From positions 1 to 33,101 of the forward strand of contig CAJWGB010000037.1 of NCBI GenBank assembly GCA_913031625.1: a DNA stretch of 33,101 nt, read 5' to 3'. Origin of the DNA: an uncultured Planctomycetaceae bacterium (GTDB taxonomy: Bacteria > Planctomycetota > Planctomycetia > Planctomycetales > Planctomycetaceae). This document shows, in pieces, positions 2,116 to 9,468 of the stretch. Both the position numbers and the translations under genes were made by a program. How positions within the stretch are numbered: the first letter of the stretch is position 1; each line of letters opens with the position of its first letter. The notes below the pieces were generated by a model. The model did no database searches and was not told the origin of the DNA. It saw nothing but the letters and a program-made list of their open reading frames with translations.

Positions 2116-4961
2116 GACACTGCCTCACAACAATCCTGCTCATAATCCTGTGCGTGACATGCACTGCAGATGAGAAGCTGGACTTTGCGGCTGATGTTGT
2201 ACCGATCCTTCAGGAACACTGTCTGCGATGTCATTCCAGCAACAACCGGAAAGGTGACGTGTCGCTTGAGACGGTGAACGATCTACGCGACGGCGACTAC
2301 CTTGTGGCCGGAAAACCAGAAGAGAGCCACCTCATTGAGTTGATCGCCGGTGTGGATGACGAGCCACCGGAAATGCCAAAAGAGGGTAAGCCGCTGTCGA
2401 AGGAACAGGTCGATGTGATTCGTCAGTGGATCGAAGGCGGCGCGGACTGGCCAGAGGATCTGGTTGTGCGTGAAAAGTCGCGGGCTGACGAATCATGGTG
2501 GTCCTTGCAGCCGCTGACACCGCCAGAGGATGGCCGGACGATTGATACCTACATTGACGCGGTGTTGAAGCGAGAGAAACTCCAGCGGAATCCTCACGCC
2601 TCACGAGCGGAATTGATTCGGCGAGCCACGTATGACCTGACCGGGCTTCCACCGACGCCCGAAGAAGTCGAGCAGTTCGTCAACAGTGATGACCCTGAAG
2701 CGTGGCCGAAGTTAATCGATCGTCTGCTGGAGTCTCCTCACTATGGCGAACGCTGGGGGCGGCACTGGCTGGACGTGGTGCGGTTTGGTGAAAGCAATGG
2801 GTTTGAGCGAAACGTAATTTACAAAGATGCATGGCCGTTTCGTGACTACGTGATTCGATCCATCAATGAAGACAAGCCGTTCAACACTTTCATCCGAGAG
2901 CATCTGGCAGGAGATGTATTTGGAAAGGATGATCCTCAGGTTGCGGTTGGAACTGTGTTCCTTGTGGCCGGGCCGTACGATGATGTTGGCAATCAGGACC
3001 CGGTGCAGAAGGCTCAGATTCGAGCCAACACCATTGACGAGATGATTCGAGCGAGCGGCGAAGCGTTCCTGGGGCTGACGATTGGTTGTTCCCGGTGTCA
3101 CGATCACAAATTTGATCCGATTCGTCAGGAGGACTACTACAGTTTCTACGCAACATTCTCTGGTGTGAGTCACGGCAGCGCACCTCTGGTGACTCCTCAG
3201 CAGCGCGACGAACGAAATGCGGCACTGACACCTCTTGAGAAACAATTGTCTGAGCTTCAGACGCAGCAGAAGCAGCTTTCCGATGCAATCGTGGGGCGCG
3301 GGCAGAATCGACTTGCTGAACATCAGGCGGTATGGACTCGTCCGGCCGTGGACCCGACCGGGACTGAAGACACCTTCGATCCCGTGGCTGCAAAGTTCGT
3401 GCGACTGGTGTGTGAGGCTCAGGACACGAATCCAGCGTCTCGCAGTGGCTTTGGAATCGGTGAATTCGAAGTCTGGTCTGCCGGGGACAACAGTCGCAAC
3501 GTTGCCCTGGCGTCCAATGGCGGCAAAGCATCCGGTGACGCACGAATTATCGAAGATTTCCCGGGAGCGTATGGCCCACAGCTGGCAATCGACGGAAGAA
3601 CGGGCGCTCGCTTCATTGCGCGGGGAAGTGATCTGACGATCGAACTTGCCGAAGTGACCTCGATCAATCGTGTGTTCTTCTTCAGTTCGGGGAAGGAAGA
3701 GACGCGGCGATTTCGGTTTGTGGCTGAATACCGCATTGAAGTCAGCACAGACGGGATGTCATGGCACACTGTTACCAGCAGCGCAGATCGGAAACCAATC
3801 GCCGGTGACCAGTTTCAGAGGCATCGCCTTCTGTTGCGGGAAGCGACTTCCAAAGAGCAAACCCAGCTCAGGGATTTGAAACGAAAAATTGCAGCAGTCA
3901 AAGCCACGATTAGCAAAGTTCCCACGCTGCCGACGGCATGGATAGGCAAGCGTTCGGCGGATGATGCGAAGGGACCCTTTTATATCTTTGAGGGCGGGAG
4001 CCCTCAAAAGAAGGGCCGTGAGGTTGTCCCGGCAAGTTTGTCTGCGCTGCAGAATCAGGGGGCCGGATATCGACTTGAAGCGGCGGCGGCAGAATCGGTA
4101 AGGCGTCAGGCTCTGGCAGACTGGATCGTTCACCCGACTAATCCACTGACGCCGCGCGTGCTGGCCAATCGGTTGTGGCATTACCATTTCGGCACGGGCA
4201 TTGTGGATACTCCGAGCGATCTCGGATACATGGGTGGTCGGCCCACTCATCCAGCCCTGCTGGACTACCTTGCACGTCGTCTGCTGGACCATGGCTGGAA
4301 GCTCAAGCCACTGCATCGCGAGATCATGTTGTCCCGGACCTATCAGCAGTCCAGTGCAAATCGTCCGGAGGCGGCCAAAGCAGATGCGGATGCACGGCTG
4401 TTGTGGCGGTTTCCTCCACGTCGCCTCTCAGCTGAGGAGATTCGGGACACGCTACTGGATGTCGCGGGCCTGTTGACGCACAGAGGAGCAAAAGCAAAGG
4501 GGCCGGTACCGGACGGGGGCCCTGGATTTCGGCTGTACCGATTCATGCAGGACAATGTCTGCACTTACGCTCCTTTGGATAAACATGGGCCGGAGACTTA
4601 TCGGCGAGCCGTCTATCATCAGAATGCGAGGGCGTCCGTCGTTGATCTGATGACCGACTTTGATCAGCCGGACTGTACGTTCTCTGCTCCGCGTCGCGCG
4701 GAAACGACGACACCTTTGCAGGCACTCACGATGCTGAATCACAGCTTTACGATGGATGTGTCAGTTGCTCTGGCGAAGCGGCTTGAGAAGGAGAGCGGTC
4801 CGACTGTCAGGAAACAGATTCAGCGAGCCTGTCAGCTTTGCTATGGTCGGGCAGCGACGCTTGAGGAATTGAAATCCTGCGAAGAGTATGCGACGAAGCA
4901 CGGGATGCCGTCATTGTGTCGTGTGTTGTTGAATACGAGTGAATTGATCTATGTTCGGTAG
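2112..4961 (+). CDS. PSCyt1-DUF1549-DUF1553 planctomycete cytochrome-like protein with discoidin-like insert
   Basis: I take the ATG at 2112 rather than an in-frame ATG at 2043. It overlaps the upstream stop as ATGA, has GGAGG about eight bases before it, and opens with a clean signal peptide (MRHCLTTILLIILCVTCTA). The product is 949 residues. A haem-binding CLRCH motif at 37-41 marks the PSCyt1 cytochrome domain. DUF1549 follows (YGERWGRHWLDVVRFGESNG) with a second CSRCH at 326-330 in the usual CSRCHDHKFDPI context. Residues about 422-560 look like an F5/8 type C (discoidin) carbohydrate-binding insert (FVRLVCE, EVSTDGMSWHTV). DUF1553 covers about 665-930 (LANRLWHYHFG, RRLSAEEIRD). These proteins are thought to be exported redox or polymer-degrading partners of DUF1501 proteins; the biochemical role is unknown. 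Confidence 0.92.
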   Translation: MRHCLTTILLIILCVTCTADEKLDFAADVVPILQEHCLRCHSSNNRKGDVSLETVNDLRDGDYLVAGKPEESHLIELIAGVDDEPPEMPKEGKPLSKEQVDVIRQWIEGGADWPEDLVVREKSRADESWWSLQPLTPPEDGRTIDTYIDAVLKREKLQRNPHASRAELIRRATYDLTGLPPTPEEVEQFVNSDDPEAWPKLIDRLLESPHYGERWGRHWLDVVRFGESNGFERNVIYKDAWPFRDYVIRSINEDKPFNTFIREHLAGDVFGKDDPQVAVGTVFLVAGPYDDVGNQDPVQKAQIRANTIDEMIRASGEAFLGLTIGCSRCHDHKFDPIRQEDYYSFYATFSGVSHGSAPLVTPQQRDERNAALTPLEKQLSELQTQQKQLSDAIVGRGQNRLAEHQAVWTRPAVDPTGTEDTFDPVAAKFVRLVCEAQDTNPASRSGFGIGEFEVWSAGDNSRNVALASNGGKASGDARIIEDFPGAYGPQLAIDGRTGARFIARGSDLTIELAEVTSINRVFFFSSGKEETRRFRFVAEYRIEVSTDGMSWHTVTSSADRKPIAGDQFQRHRLLLREATSKEQTQLRDLKRKIAAVKATISKVPTLPTAWIGKRSADDAKGPFYIFEGGSPQKKGREVVPASLSALQNQGAGYRLEAAAAESVRRQALADWIVHPTNPLTPRVLANRLWHYHFGTGIVDTPSDLGYMGGRPTHPALLDYLARRLLDHGWKLKPLHREIMLSRTYQQSSANRPEAAKADADARLLWRFPPRRLSAEEIRDTLLDVAGLLTHRGAKAKGPVPDGGPGFRLYRFMQDNVCTYAPLDKHGPETYRRAVYHQNARASVVDLMTDFDQPDCTFSAPRRAETTTPLQALTMLNHSFTMDVSVALAKRLEKESGPTVRKQIQRACQLCYGRAATLEELKSCEEYATKHGMPSLCRVLLNTSELIYVR

Positions 4962-4975
4962 TGGGGTGGGGTTTG

Positions 4976-5076
4976 AATCACCACAGAGAGCACAGAGAGC
5001 ACAGAGGTGCAGAGGTACACAGAGTAGAATCCGTGTCTGTCTTTCTCGGTGTACCTCTGTGTCCTCTGTGGTAATT
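4976..5076. repeat. CACAGAG palindromic element, complete copy
   Basis: This roughly 101-base element fills the spacer between two plus-strand genes. The left arm starts AATCACCACAGAG and continues with several CACAGAG units. The right arm, read on the minus strand from 5076, starts AATTACCACAGAG and is an imperfect inverted copy. The centre holds TAGAATCCGTGTCTGTC. Heads face outward, giving a long hairpin in RNA. It may act as a terminator or mobile palindrome. Minus-strand frames through it yield Cys/Leu-rich artefact peptides. Confidence 0.75.
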
Positions 5077-5090
5077 AAAGGGAGCGACAG

Positions 5091-6497
5091 ATGCGTGTGT
5101 GTACATTGTTGACATGTCTGGTTGTGCTGGTGCCGTTTGCAAGGGCCGATCTGAAGGCTGGAGCTGCAACAAGCAACATCACTCCTGAACTGGGGCGTGA
5201 GATCATCGGCGGCTTTGTACCGTTTCCGGCGACTCACATACACGACGAACTGCACGCTCGCTGCCTGGTGCTCGACGATGGCAGGACGCGTCTGGCGATT
5301 GTGGTGTGTGACCTTCTGGGCATCGACCGCATCGTGAGTGAAGACGCGCGGCTGTTGATTGAGCGGAACAGTGGCATCCCGAAAGAGCGAGTGTTGATCA
5401 GTGGGACGCATACGCATTCCGCGGCCAGTGCTCTCGGATCGGATCCTCGCGCGCTGAAGCAGCACCCGGATGAGTACCAGGCGTTTGTGTCGCGACGCAT
5501 TGCAGACGGAGTTGCTCGTGCGATCAACAACCTGCGGCCGGCGGAACTGGCATTCGGCACGGTGGATGTCCCGGAACACGTGTTCAATCGCCGCTGGCAC
5601 ATGCGTCCCGGCAGCATTCCCGCAAACCCGTTCGGAGGTGGAGACCTCGTGAAAATGAATCCTCCGCGAGGGAATGCGAACCTCGTGGAGCCTGCCGGAC
5701 CGACCGATCCGACTGTGTCTTATTTCTCCGTGCGGCACACCGACGGCACGCCCCTTGCGCTCTATGCAGCCTACTCATTGCATTACGTTGGCGGGGTTGG
5801 CAAAGGTCACGTTTCCGCGGACTACTTTGCTGTATTCAGTGAGCGTCTCAAGCAGCTGATTGCTCCCAATGAGCGGGGTGACCGGGCTCCGTTTGTTGCC
5901 ATGATGGCGAATGGGACGAGTGGCGATATCAATAACATTAACTTCCGGAACCCTCGCCCACGAAAGCAGCCCTATGAACAGATGCGATATGTTGGCAGGG
6001 ACGTTGCGGCCAAAGTGCAGGATTCCATGCAAGACCTGAAGTATTCCGCCGACATCTCTCTGGCGGCCGTCTATCGGGAGCCACTTATCCAGTGGCGGAA
6101 GGTGTCTGCAGAAACGAAGAAATGGGCGGAGGAGACGATCGCTGCCGGTAAGCAGAGCGAAAGAGACCTCTCATTTATCTATGCCCAGCGAACAATGCGG
6201 CAGGCCAACTATCCAGCAACGACGACGGTGCCGCTGCATGTGTTGCGGATTGGCGATCTATGCATTGGGACGATGCCATTTGAGGTGTTTTGTGAAATCG
6301 GGATCGAGTTTCGGGAGCAGTGTCCCGTGCAGCCCGCCTTCATGGTGGAATTGGCGCACGGTTACTTCGGGTATCTTCCAACTCCACGGCATCGTGATCT
6401 TGGTGGCTATGAGACATGGCTGGGCACGAATCGTGTGGAGAAGCAGGCTTCAGAGAAGCTGCTGAAGGAACTGCTGGAGATGGCTGAAGAGCTGTAG
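5091..6497 (+). CDS. Neutral/alkaline ceramidase-like exported hydrolase
   Basis: The 468-residue product has a short signal peptide (residues 1-19, ending FARA) and then LKAGAATSNITPELG, the typical opening of the neutral/alkaline non-lysosomal ceramidase superfamily. The zinc-binding hallmark GTHTHSA sits at residues 105-111. A second conserved block is HYVGG at about 227, and FVAMMANGTSGDIN (about 265-278) corresponds to the family's NGTSGDI nucleophile-region motif. True ceramidases are about 650-750 residues and have a C-terminal immunoglobulin-like domain. This protein is shorter and lacks it, so the substrate may not be a sphingolipid. An AAGGGAG box 10-12 bases before the ATG supports the start. 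It is separated from the upstream gene by the CACAGAG palindrome. Confidence 0.85.
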   Translation: MRVCTLLTCLVVLVPFARADLKAGAATSNITPELGREIIGGFVPFPATHIHDELHARCLVLDDGRTRLAIVVCDLLGIDRIVSEDARLLIERNSGIPKERVLISGTHTHSAASALGSDPRALKQHPDEYQAFVSRRIADGVARAINNLRPAELAFGTVDVPEHVFNRRWHMRPGSIPANPFGGGDLVKMNPPRGNANLVEPAGPTDPTVSYFSVRHTDGTPLALYAAYSLHYVGGVGKGHVSADYFAVFSERLKQLIAPNERGDRAPFVAMMANGTSGDINNINFRNPRPRKQPYEQMRYVGRDVAAKVQDSMQDLKYSADISLAAVYREPLIQWRKVSAETKKWAEETIAAGKQSERDLSFIYAQRTMRQANYPATTTVPLHVLRIGDLCIGTMPFEVFCEIGIEFREQCPVQPAFMVELAHGYFGYLPTPRHRDLGGYETWLGTNRVEKQASEKLLKELLEMAEEL

Positions 6498-6538
6498 GGT
6501 TAGTGTATTGCCCGGATGGCACGTGTTGGGTTGTTCGT

Positions 6539-6556
6539 GTCAGGTTGAAACCTGAC
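6539..6556. terminator. Stem-loop between convergent genes
   Basis: GTCAGGTT-GA-AACCTGAC is a perfect 8-bp inverted repeat, 41 bases after the ceramidase-like stop and about 90 bases after the end of the opposing transporter gene. Its place between convergent genes suggests a bidirectional terminator or a REP-like element. No strong T tract follows on either side. Confidence 0.5.
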
Positions 6557-6643
6557 CTGCGGATACAGCGATCAGTGTTGCGGGACTGTTGGATGGCCGA
6601 CTCCCAGAGCTGTCGCTCGACCCTCCTCGGGGACGCTGATGTG

Positions 6644-7975
6644 CTACGGCAAAGCGACCGTAAACAGGACTGTAAATACGAATTCGATCCCCAACGCAGT
6701 CAGCAACGCCGTTTGGATCAGGGTTCGTGTGTCCACCTTCTTCTGACCACTGATGAGCTGGCCCACCGCAAACACCGTCACGGCGGTCGTGACCGCAAAT
6801 GGCAGGTCCGTCTTTTCCAGCAACAGGACCCAGACGGAAACGATCAGCAGACACCCGATTGCTGCCGTATGTCTGAGGGGGGCAGTCCGTGACTCTTTCT
6901 GGTCCGTTCGACCTGCCAGAACAATGACAATCGCCAAAACAACACACAGTGTTCCCGCCCAGAATGGAAAGTCAGGCAGGTCTGCCTCTGACTGTTCCGC
7001 CAGAGGAGCCAGTTCGTTCATTCTGGCCACCATGCGGTCGTTGAGTTCCACGCCATCGAGATAGTTGCGTTCGATCGACCACTTTGTCAGTGCCCCGATT
7101 ACTTCTGTGTCCTGCATGGTCTGCTTCAATGCCGACCGCAGGTTGTCCTTCACAGACTCCGGTGTGCCCTGGGGAGCCAGCCAGTAGTAGGCGTTACCGG
7201 AAGTGACTTCGATTCCTTCATTCAGGCAGGTCGACGTGGTTCCGAGTGCTGCGGGAGTTTTCTCTGACAGTGAAACGAGTGCTCGGATGTTTTTGTCAGC
7301 GGGTGTTCCTTCTTCGTTGACAAAGCTGAGATACTCGGCCAGCGAAAAGATGCCGGCTTCGAGGTGCCCGCCAATGAGCTCGATGTACCGTTTCTGTCCG
7401 CCTCCTGATGTGATCAGGTTGAAGCGGGCACCGGGAACAGCCGCTTCCAGCTGCCGCGCTGTGAAGTGAGCGGGAGACCCGGCGTTCGCTCCAAACCGAA
7501 GTGTGCCAGGTTCGGCCTTCGCGTCGTTCAGAAGTTCGGTCACTGATTTCCACGGGGCGTCTTCACGGACTACCACGACAAGGTGAACCGTTCCGGTTCT
7601 TGCGATGAGATCGAAGTCTGCAGGTCCGAAGGGGACCGTGCCTGATAACTGTGTTGTGATGAGTGATTCATGATGACACAAAATGCGATAGCCATCCGGC
7701 CGAGCGTCTTTTACGTAGCGGCTGCCAATCGTCCCGCTGCCTCCCGGCTGATTGATGATGACCAGCGGCTGCGGAAGTCGTTGATTGTCCTCGATACTCT
7801 TTGTCATCAGTCGGACAAAACTGTCGGTACCGCCGCCAGCAGAGTAGGGCACCACCACATGAATCGGACGTGCGGGCCATCCATCGCTGTCAGCAGATGG
7901 CAGACTGGTGAAAATCTTCCATCCACACAGGCATGCGATGATGAGCCAGATTGCAGGTTGTAAGATGCGAATCAC
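6644..7975 (-). CDS. Fused TctC-type (Bug) substrate receptor and TctB-type membrane subunit
   Basis: I choose the GTG at 7975-7973. It overlaps the TctA stop as GTGA and has AGAGGA about 12 bases upstream. The protein is 443 residues. Residues 7-23 are one hydrophobic helix. Residues about 36-310 are a Bug-family periplasmic receptor (VPYSAGGGTD at 42-51, NQPGGSGTIGSRYVKDARPDGY, then the SGGGQKRYIELIGGHLEAG ligand loop). Residues about 332-443 hold four further hydrophobic helices and end in a short VALP tail like TctB. In TctABC systems the receptor captures carboxylates and TctA/TctB form the sodium- or proton-coupled carrier. Here no separate tctB or tctC is present. The topology suggests that the receptor sits in the periplasmic loop after TctB helix 1. 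The substrate is unknown. Confidence 0.85.
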   Translation of the reverse strand: MIRILQPAIWLIIACLCGWKIFTSLPSADSDGWPARPIHVVVPYSAGGGTDSFVRLMTKSIEDNQRLPQPLVIINQPGGSGTIGSRYVKDARPDGYRILCHHESLITTQLSGTVPFGPADFDLIARTGTVHLVVVVREDAPWKSVTELLNDAKAEPGTLRFGANAGSPAHFTARQLEAAVPGARFNLITSGGGQKRYIELIGGHLEAGIFSLAEYLSFVNEEGTPADKNIRALVSLSEKTPAALGTTSTCLNEGIEVTSGNAYYWLAPQGTPESVKDNLRSALKQTMQDTEVIGALTKWSIERNYLDGVELNDRMVARMNELAPLAEQSEADLPDFPFWAGTLCVVLAIVIVLAGRTDQKESRTAPLRHTAAIGCLLIVSVWVLLLEKTDLPFAVTTAVTVFAVGQLISGQKKVDTRTLIQTALLTALGIEFVFTVLFTVALP

Positions 7976-9468
7976 GCTGTGGTTTCCTCTTTGGGAAGAC
8001 TTCGGAATCGTCTTCGAAGAAATGGAAACGCGGTCAGCAGCAGAGCGACACATAGAAAAATGAGTGAGATTGGGCGTGTGACGAGCGGGCTCCAGTCTCC
8101 GTTGGTCGACATCAGGCCGGTGCTCAGGTTTTCTTCTGCGATGGGGCCCAGAACAAAACCAATCACAAACGGTGCCAGGGGTATGCGACGTGATTCAAGC
8201 ACGAAGCCGAGCACACCGAATGCCAGCATGACCCAGACGTCAAAGATACGGTTGGCCAGTGCATACGAACCAATTACGCAGAACGTAATGATGACTGGGT
8301 AGAGCACAGATCGGGGAATAGACGTCAGCCGGGAAAGCAGCTTCAGTGATCTCATCATCAGAAACAGCATGACAATATTTGCCAGCAGCATGGCCCCCAT
8401 AATGGTGTAAACAACGTCCGGGTGGTCCGTGAACAGTCGAGGTCCAGGCTGCAGACCGTGGATGATGAGTGCACCCAGCAGGACAGCTTCGACAACACTG
8501 CCGGGAAGTCCCATGGAGATCAACGGGATCAGTGCTCCGCCGACGGTGGCGTTATTCGCCGATTCGCCGGCAATGATACCGGGTTCGTGTCCCGTCCCGA
8601 ACTCTTCCGGTTTATCTGAAGTACTGCGGGCGACGGAGTACGCGGTGACAGCGCCGATGTTCGCGCCAATTCCAGGCAGCATGCCGATGAATGTCCCGAT
8701 GAAGGAAGACCGAACCATGTTGACGCCATGCGTCTTCAGATCGGACAGTGTGAGTCGGCCCGAATTATTCGAGATATCGATCGCATTGGGGACAGCATCC
8801 CCGGAAAGAATGTCGCGCAGGATCTGGTTGATGGCAAACATTCCGATAAGGACCGGCAACAGTTGAAAGCCATCATTGAGCTCCGCGAATCCAAATGTGA
8901 GGCGTGTCTGGCCGGTGGCTGCTGCGATGCCTGGCATTGAAAGAAGAATCCCCAGCATTCCGGCAAACAGTGATCGCGGAAGTGATTCGCCGCCGACGCT
9001 GGCGATGAGCACAAGAGCCATGGCAACCAGTGAGAAATACTCAAACGGGCCGAATCGGGTCGACAGGTCGGCAATCGGTCCCGCAAGGAGCACCAGGAAT
9101 CCCCATGAAATCATGCCTCCCACAAAAGATGCCATGACACCCAGCAGGAGCGCGCGGCGCGGCTGTCCGGCTGCGGCCATCGGATAGCCGTCCAGCGTGG
9201 TGATGATCGAAGCAGGAGTTCCTGGCATGCGGAGCAGGGTGGCAGAAATCAGGCCACCGCTGATTGCCCCAACATAGATGCTGATTAACAGCGTCATCGC
9301 GAGCAGCGGGTCCGCGCCGTATGTCAGCGGAAGCGTCAACGCAATCAGCATTGTTCCAGTGAGACCAGGGATCGCTCCGACAAAGATTCCGAGTGCCGTG
9401 CCGCCGACTACCAATAAGAGCCCGAGTGGACTCAGAAGAATGCTGGCTGCTTCGGCAATAGCGGGCAT
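7972..9468 (-). CDS. Tripartite tricarboxylate transporter large permease TctA
   Basis: The 498-residue protein is strongly hydrophobic with about 12 membrane segments, the usual TctA length. Signature blocks are near the N-terminus: GIFVGAIPGLTGTMLIALTL, followed by YVGAISGGLISATLLRMPGTPASI, and TTLDGYPMAAAGQPRRAL. A second conserved loop is GMLPGIGANIGAVTAY with GIIAGESANNATVGGALIPL in the middle. It would form the inner-membrane transport channel for a carboxylate. Its stop overlaps the GTG start of the receptor/TctB fusion, so both transporter proteins are made from one coupled transcript. No Shine-Dalgarno is obvious before the ATG, which is common here. No two-component regulator of the TctDE kind is nearby, so regulation cannot be inferred. 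Confidence 0.93.
   Translation of the reverse strand: MPAIAEAASILLSPLGLLLVVGGTALGIFVGAIPGLTGTMLIALTLPLTYGADPLLAMTLLISIYVGAISGGLISATLLRMPGTPASIITTLDGYPMAAAGQPRRALLLGVMASFVGGMISWGFLVLLAGPIADLSTRFGPFEYFSLVAMALVLIASVGGESLPRSLFAGMLGILLSMPGIAAATGQTRLTFGFAELNDGFQLLPVLIGMFAINQILRDILSGDAVPNAIDISNNSGRLTLSDLKTHGVNMVRSSFIGTFIGMLPGIGANIGAVTAYSVARSTSDKPEEFGTGHEPGIIAGESANNATVGGALIPLISMGLPGSVVEAVLLGALIIHGLQPGPRLFTDHPDVVYTIMGAMLLANIVMLFLMMRSLKLLSRLTSIPRSVLYPVIITFCVIGSYALANRIFDVWVMLAFGVLGFVLESRRIPLAPFVIGFVLGPIAEENLSTGLMSTNGDWSPLVTRPISLIFLCVALLLTAFPFLRRRFRSLPKEETTA

Follow-up and report, generated by a model that had tools for sequence, protein, structure and literature searches.

The window, by which we mean the whole 33,101-nt stretch of planctomycete DNA that was analyzed, carries a gene for a 443-residue protein in which a TctC/Bug-type receptor is joined to a part of TctB, the small membrane subunit of TTT transporters. 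The start of this gene overlaps the end of tctA, and the two genes include the following features.

6644..7975, minus strand: TctC-TctB fusion gene, 443 aa, GTG start, stop codon at 6646-6644 (open frame, Pfam)
7904..7972, minus strand: N-terminal helix, residues 2-24, an export signal and probable uncleaved anchor (AlphaFold2; not TctB helix 1 by HMM)
7931..7933, minus strand: Cys15, possible lipobox cysteine in the motif IIAC (pattern scan)
6986..7882, minus strand: TctC/Bug receptor domain, residues 32-330 (Pfam; Bug27 Z 34.9)
6647..6970, minus strand: TctB part, residues 336-443, four helices equivalent to TctB helices 2-5 (Pfam profile, AlphaFold2)
7972..7975, minus strand: GTGA overlap of the fusion gene start and the tctA stop (read from the sequence)
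7972..9468, minus strand: tctA, large membrane subunit, 498 aa (Pfam TctA 1.4e-141)

The GTG start codon of the fusion gene (7975-7973) shares the letters GTGA with the TGA stop codon of tctA (7974-7972). Because of this overlap, the GTG at 7975 is favored over an ATG at 8053, which lies inside tctA. The upstream gene matches TctA (PF01970) with an E value of 1.4e-141, and in the fusion gene both families that the preliminary description had named are matched over their cut-offs in one frame. TctC (PF03401) matches residues 65 to 312 with 93.5 bits (E 2e-26; cut-off 27), and TctB (PF07331) matches residues 336 to 443 with 37.1 bits (cut-off 29.1), wherein profile positions 32 to 137 of 137 are covered. 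The C-terminal ~110 residues are thus TctB, as had been supposed, in the form of a homolog that exceeds the cut-off yet is shortened, with helix 1 absent (Pfam, HMM). The receptor shares its reading frame with four TctB helices and, as encoded, does not appear to be a free, diffusing one. None of the DctP, DctQ and DctM families of TRAP transporters (2.A.56) is found among the Pfam matches to E 1, and no NCBIfam family matches the fusion or the TctA protein at E values up to 1. A Pfam scan of the neighboring genes in the window gave no clue to the substrate. One neighbor, at 5091-6497 on the plus strand, contains a neutral/alkaline ceramidase N-terminal domain (Pfam 1.1e-11) and adjoins a planctomycete PSCyt/PSD1 protein.

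An AlphaFold2 model of the fusion (14 sequences; mean pLDDT 84.5, pTM 0.71) places a helix at residues 2-24, then the receptor, and then helices at 336-358, 365-388, 393-408 and 416-437, with linkers of ~13 residues on one side of the receptor and ~10 on the other. The receptor domain forms a complete Bug fold, residues 34 to 330 of which align with Bug27 (2qpq_A) with a Z score of 34.9 and an rmsd of 2.2 over 288 residues. The preliminary description was therefore right to count one helix before and four helices after a full Bug-type receptor in a single protein. The separate TctB of locus L094, the nearest separate one, is modeled with five helices, and therefore one anchor plus four helices gives the right TctB helix number. 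A fold search with the separate TctB model returned generic helical matches alone (best Z 8.4).

This helix count, together with a predicted topology that also fits, is consistent with a true insertion, wherein TctB would be complete, helix 1 included, and would carry the receptor in its first periplasmic loop. Such an arrangement had been put forward in the preliminary description, and it would require that the N-terminal helix be TctB helix 1. To score this helix, an HMM was built from 69 helix-1 segments of separate TctB proteins (rows L161 and L233, which had been misread, were left out). Start codons and N-terminal classes (anchor, lipoprotein, signal peptide) had been assigned by eye, and 13 of the 14 anchors were scored, one of three near-identical single-chain proteins being left out. 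In a first test, held-out helix-1 segments averaged 17.4 bits (n=34), as opposed to 3.8 bits for anchor-type N termini (n=13), 2.6 for lipoprotein or signal-peptide N termini (n=30), 3.1 for signal peptides of separate TctC proteins (n=42, taken by pattern from 42 of 62 loci), 4.7 for other TctB helices (n=253) and 1.0 for shuffled anchors (n=260). With a six-fold hold-out, the median was 18.1 bits for true helix 1 (n=69) and 4.0 for anchors (n=13, best 7.8), and the window helix scored 1.7. Nine of the 69 true helices score no higher than the best anchor, that of locus L076, which is also the 1 anchor of 13 to score as high as the 10th percentile of the true helices in this looser test; with a shorter segment, the corresponding counts are 6 of 69 and 0 of 13.

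Anchor scores are therefore at the level of signal peptides and of unrelated helices, and the candidate in which TctB helix 1 is kept at the N terminus was rejected. A pattern of aromatic and Gln residues at the anchor helix ends, which by eye resembles helix 1 of L094, also received no support from the HMM. These low scores mean that the sequence holds no helix-1 signal, and fast drift could mask such a helix. Within lineage I of the TctA tree described below, anchor-type N termini, as labeled by eye, fill two of its three main clades, which favors an insertion, whereas cleavable signals are found by motif at the same place in relatives. We consider a true insertion quite improbable. What stands from the earlier proposal is the topology, which an uncleaved anchor, likely in the clade of the window, would give, but by the HMM the helix is not that of TctB.

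The N-terminal helix in the window clade is most likely an uncleaved anchor. Its cleavage as a signal peptide, which had been named as the finding that would overturn an insertion, is indicated by motif in many relatives, which carry a lipobox or a type I signal-peptidase site at the N terminus. The N termini were scanned, after the classes had been assigned by eye, with a PROSITE-type lipobox pattern. It is matched by 18 of the 30 N termini classed as lipoprotein or signal peptide and by 1 of the 14 classed as anchors, which is the window protein itself, at Cys15 and with Arg3. Cleavage of the window helix at this candidate cysteine is possible, and the receptor would then be held by a lipid and by four TctB helices. 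The hydrophobic residues continue beyond Cys15, however, and the pattern is missing from the other 13 anchor-class rows (classes by eye), including the nearest relatives L076, L078, L002 and L081 and the three single chains, such that a lipoprotein form of the window protein seems rather unlikely. Where the signal is cleaved, TctB would work with four helices.

We favor, with a probability of roughly 0.78, a two-gene TTT transporter composed of tctA and a receptor fused ahead of a TctB that is without helix 1, wherein the receptor would be tethered. Since the helix-1 HMM is negative and relatives carry cleavable-signal motifs, the event is best described as the joining of a receptor to TctB minus helix 1. 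The receptor's own N-terminal signal would drive export and, if uncleaved, would act as the first helix, and the receptor C terminus would pass directly into TctB helix 2, which would serve as a stop-transfer. Held in this manner at both ends above TctA, the receptor would catch a ligand, which by family is probably a carboxylate, and pass it to the co-translated TctA without diffusion, presumably in ion-driven uptake. A TctC joined end-to-end to a whole TctB would leave helix 1 misdirected, and we infer that the loss of helix 1 therefore fixes the orientation. The stoichiometry would be one receptor per permease, and the counts in the window genome fit this, with two TctA and two TctC, both of the latter fused.

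Two other readings of the gene were weighed. A protease might cut the protein after translation to give a free receptor and TctB with ordinary function. This is highly improbable, as separate genes already provide that arrangement, the fusion is recurrent and apparently arose twice, and the AlphaFold2 model is without a long exposed linker. Some Bug-type receptors feed two-component systems, and the protein might accordingly be a sensor and not a transporter subunit. The gene overlaps tctA and carries TctB, however, and no kinase or regulator was found among the scanned neighbor genes, which makes a sensor scarcely credible.

The same architecture recurs in planctomycete genomes, where the preliminary description had suggested a survey. 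Matches to the fusion were found at 21 places in 17 of 58 genomes (own, genus, family and class, with the window included). Eighteen of these were read as the same fusion, one as a separate TctC (L012), and two as cut by contig ends (L016 and L021). A sequencing error or artifact was rejected, as the fusion is present in 18 of the 21 places, in many species and in three closed genomes. L011 and L021 appear to be one gene split between two contigs, and L010 and L093 appear to be one contig with the same protein; both pairs were counted unjoined. The window genome holds a second copy on contig 144 (L018), in which receptor-TctB lies ahead of tctA and the TctB part scores 19.3 bits, under the Pfam cut-off. 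The sole TctB over the cut-off in this genome is that of the window fusion; the absence of further Tct genes is uncertain because the assembly consists of 444 contigs. Around the fusions L004, L005 and L006, the 8-10 kb retrieved for each showed no tctA, and one or two tctA genes are present elsewhere in each genome. Genetic coupling to tctA, which is plain in the window, is therefore not universal.

A sample of 199 planctomycete genomes contained 17 TctB places over the cut-off. Twelve of these, several from the same genera, belong to frames that are at least 465 aa long, with a match that starts at profile position 21-32, and the other five lie in frames of 150-233 aa that match from profile position 2-5. 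These 199 genomes also have 24 TctC places, of which 13 belong to fused frames and the remaining 11 to shorter ones; several of the latter are truncated at contig ends.

A single chain of 973 aa is encoded by three closed planctomycete genomes that belong to one genus (G104, G125 and G233). It combines, in order, TctA, a linker rich in lysine, a single helix, the receptor and the TctB helices, such that the helix before the receptor is internal. These frames are located at 3695-6646 (L247), 3623-6574 (L248) and 3771-6722 (L249), all on the minus strand. A whole-protein hmmscan of two of the chains gave TctA and TctC with no TctB at E 0.01; a six-frame search gave TctB at 29.6, 29.2 and 34.4 bits (cut-off 29.1), and blastp aligns the window TctB part with the single chains at 33-35% identity (E 4e-8 to 2e-11). 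Between L247 and L249, raw codon differences, which are not a formal dN/dS, number 86 synonymous and 33 non-synonymous in TctA, 11 and 24 in the linker and helix, 58 and 35 in the receptor, and 18 and 23 in TctB. By these counts the parts of the chain look constrained, the linker excepted.

A further form consists of a receptor with one helix, followed by TctA (L085, L088, L089, L091 and L092). A sixth one-helix receptor gene, L253, comes from the genome that also carries L076. In the two genomes checked, those of L085 and L253, no separately encoded TctB exceeds the Pfam cut-off. Just downstream of the tctA beside the L253 receptor is a frame that by eye resembles an amidohydrolase-type enzyme (L253:3-1076, minus strand).

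Two apparent origins of the fusion are the simplest reading of a TctA tree that was built quickly from 57 of 69 rows (12 duplicates dropped) and that carries a warning of long branches. In this tree, the sister of lineage I (29 rows, support 98) is the separate-gene system L094 of Spirochaetia, and lineage II (9 rows, support 100) is sister to separate planctomycete systems. A clade with support 91 unites the rows of tctA-first order (5 rows, 99) with the single chains (3 rows, 99). Forcing all fused rows into one clade, a group that was named after the tree had been seen, is 152 log units worse (p-AU 8e-5).

A scan of 84,980 species genomes gave more loci than the best 80 considered here, among which 18 (L076-L093) belong to the window lineage and have hosts in Planctomycetota, Verrucomicrobiota and Lentisphaerota. 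Twelve of these 18 read as full fusions, one (L078) is cut by a contig end, and five are one-helix forms. In the other 62 of the best 80 (L094-L155), the matched frame is without a hydrophobic segment after the receptor. In Verrucomicrobiota, TctC is over the cut-off in just 2 of 194 sampled genomes, G251 included, too few for a fusion rate.

For Pseudomonadota and Bacillota, a fusion was defined as a frame of at least 380 aa with a TctB match that starts at position 20 or later. By hand count, no TctC-TctB fusion was present in 150 Pseudomonadota genomes with 100 TctB places over the cut-off, or in 149 Bacillota genomes with 111 TctB places. In the two long Pseudomonadota frames (488 and 481 aa), the TctB frame reads on upstream in a register other than that of a separate TctC, and the two long Bacillota frames (674 and 682 aa) carry TctA ahead of TctB. 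Eleven further rows were retrieved, namely five long and two shorter frames below the cut-off, picked for their length, and four more rows, and none is a TctC-TctB fusion. By blastp, seven of these are without TctC or TctA nearby, two are TctA-TctB frames (one over and one under the cut-off), and the remaining two are ordinary neighbors of a separate TctA. TctA-TctB fusions are found in Bacillota at L252, L270 and L271. In a plasmid collection with receptor matches in 829 records, none covers at least 80% of the fusion in one place, among the matches listed.

The fusion is real and recurrent, and it is apparently an undescribed tethered-receptor variant of TTT transporters. No description of a TctC-TctB fusion was found in the available text of the open-access literature, as distinct from subscription papers and preprints, and a sequence search of the PDB returned no solved TctA structure. 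According to the available parts of PMC5812351, a TTT system consists of a 12-TM TctA, a 4-TM TctB and a receptor, a TctAB fusion may occur rarely, and the role of TctB is unknown. A natural receptor-TctB fusion would indicate the meeting place of these subunits and a TctB helix that is dispensable, and it would set their stoichiometry at one to one. The forms may constitute a PVC series that comprises separate C, B and A genes, a C-B fusion, a C-B fusion overlapping tctA, an A-C-B chain and a one-helix form, which we offer tentatively and with the odds somewhat against it. If this series is true, then the main job of TctB would be to seat the receptor on TctA, and helix 1, even helices 3-5, would be dispensable once the receptor is tied down. 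The single-chain form would then be a ready object for a first TTT structure. Purification of these relatives could yield an entire transporter.

The window genes resemble the TctABC systems (TC 2.A.80) in that TctA, TctB and TctC homologs are present, as judged by Pfam and by the receptor fold, but differ in that the receptor and TctB form one protein and TctB helix 1 is missing. The TctA-TctB fusions of Bacillota are likewise subunit fusions within the TTT family, but the receptor is separate in L252 and L271, and the TctB of L252 matches the profile from position 2. With a tethered receptor, the TTT family would join the TRAP and TAXI families, in which such receptors are known. DctQ-DctP fusions of TRAP transporters, in which a small membrane subunit is also joined to the receptor, are even rarer than Q-M fusions in the available text of PMC8276074. 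Unlike these, the window proteins are without any TRAP family by Pfam. TAXI-GltS fusions and lipid-anchored TAXI receptors, as described in the available parts of PMC12344293 and PMC11574862, similarly tie a receptor to a secondary transporter, but their receptor and permease families are other than those of the window.
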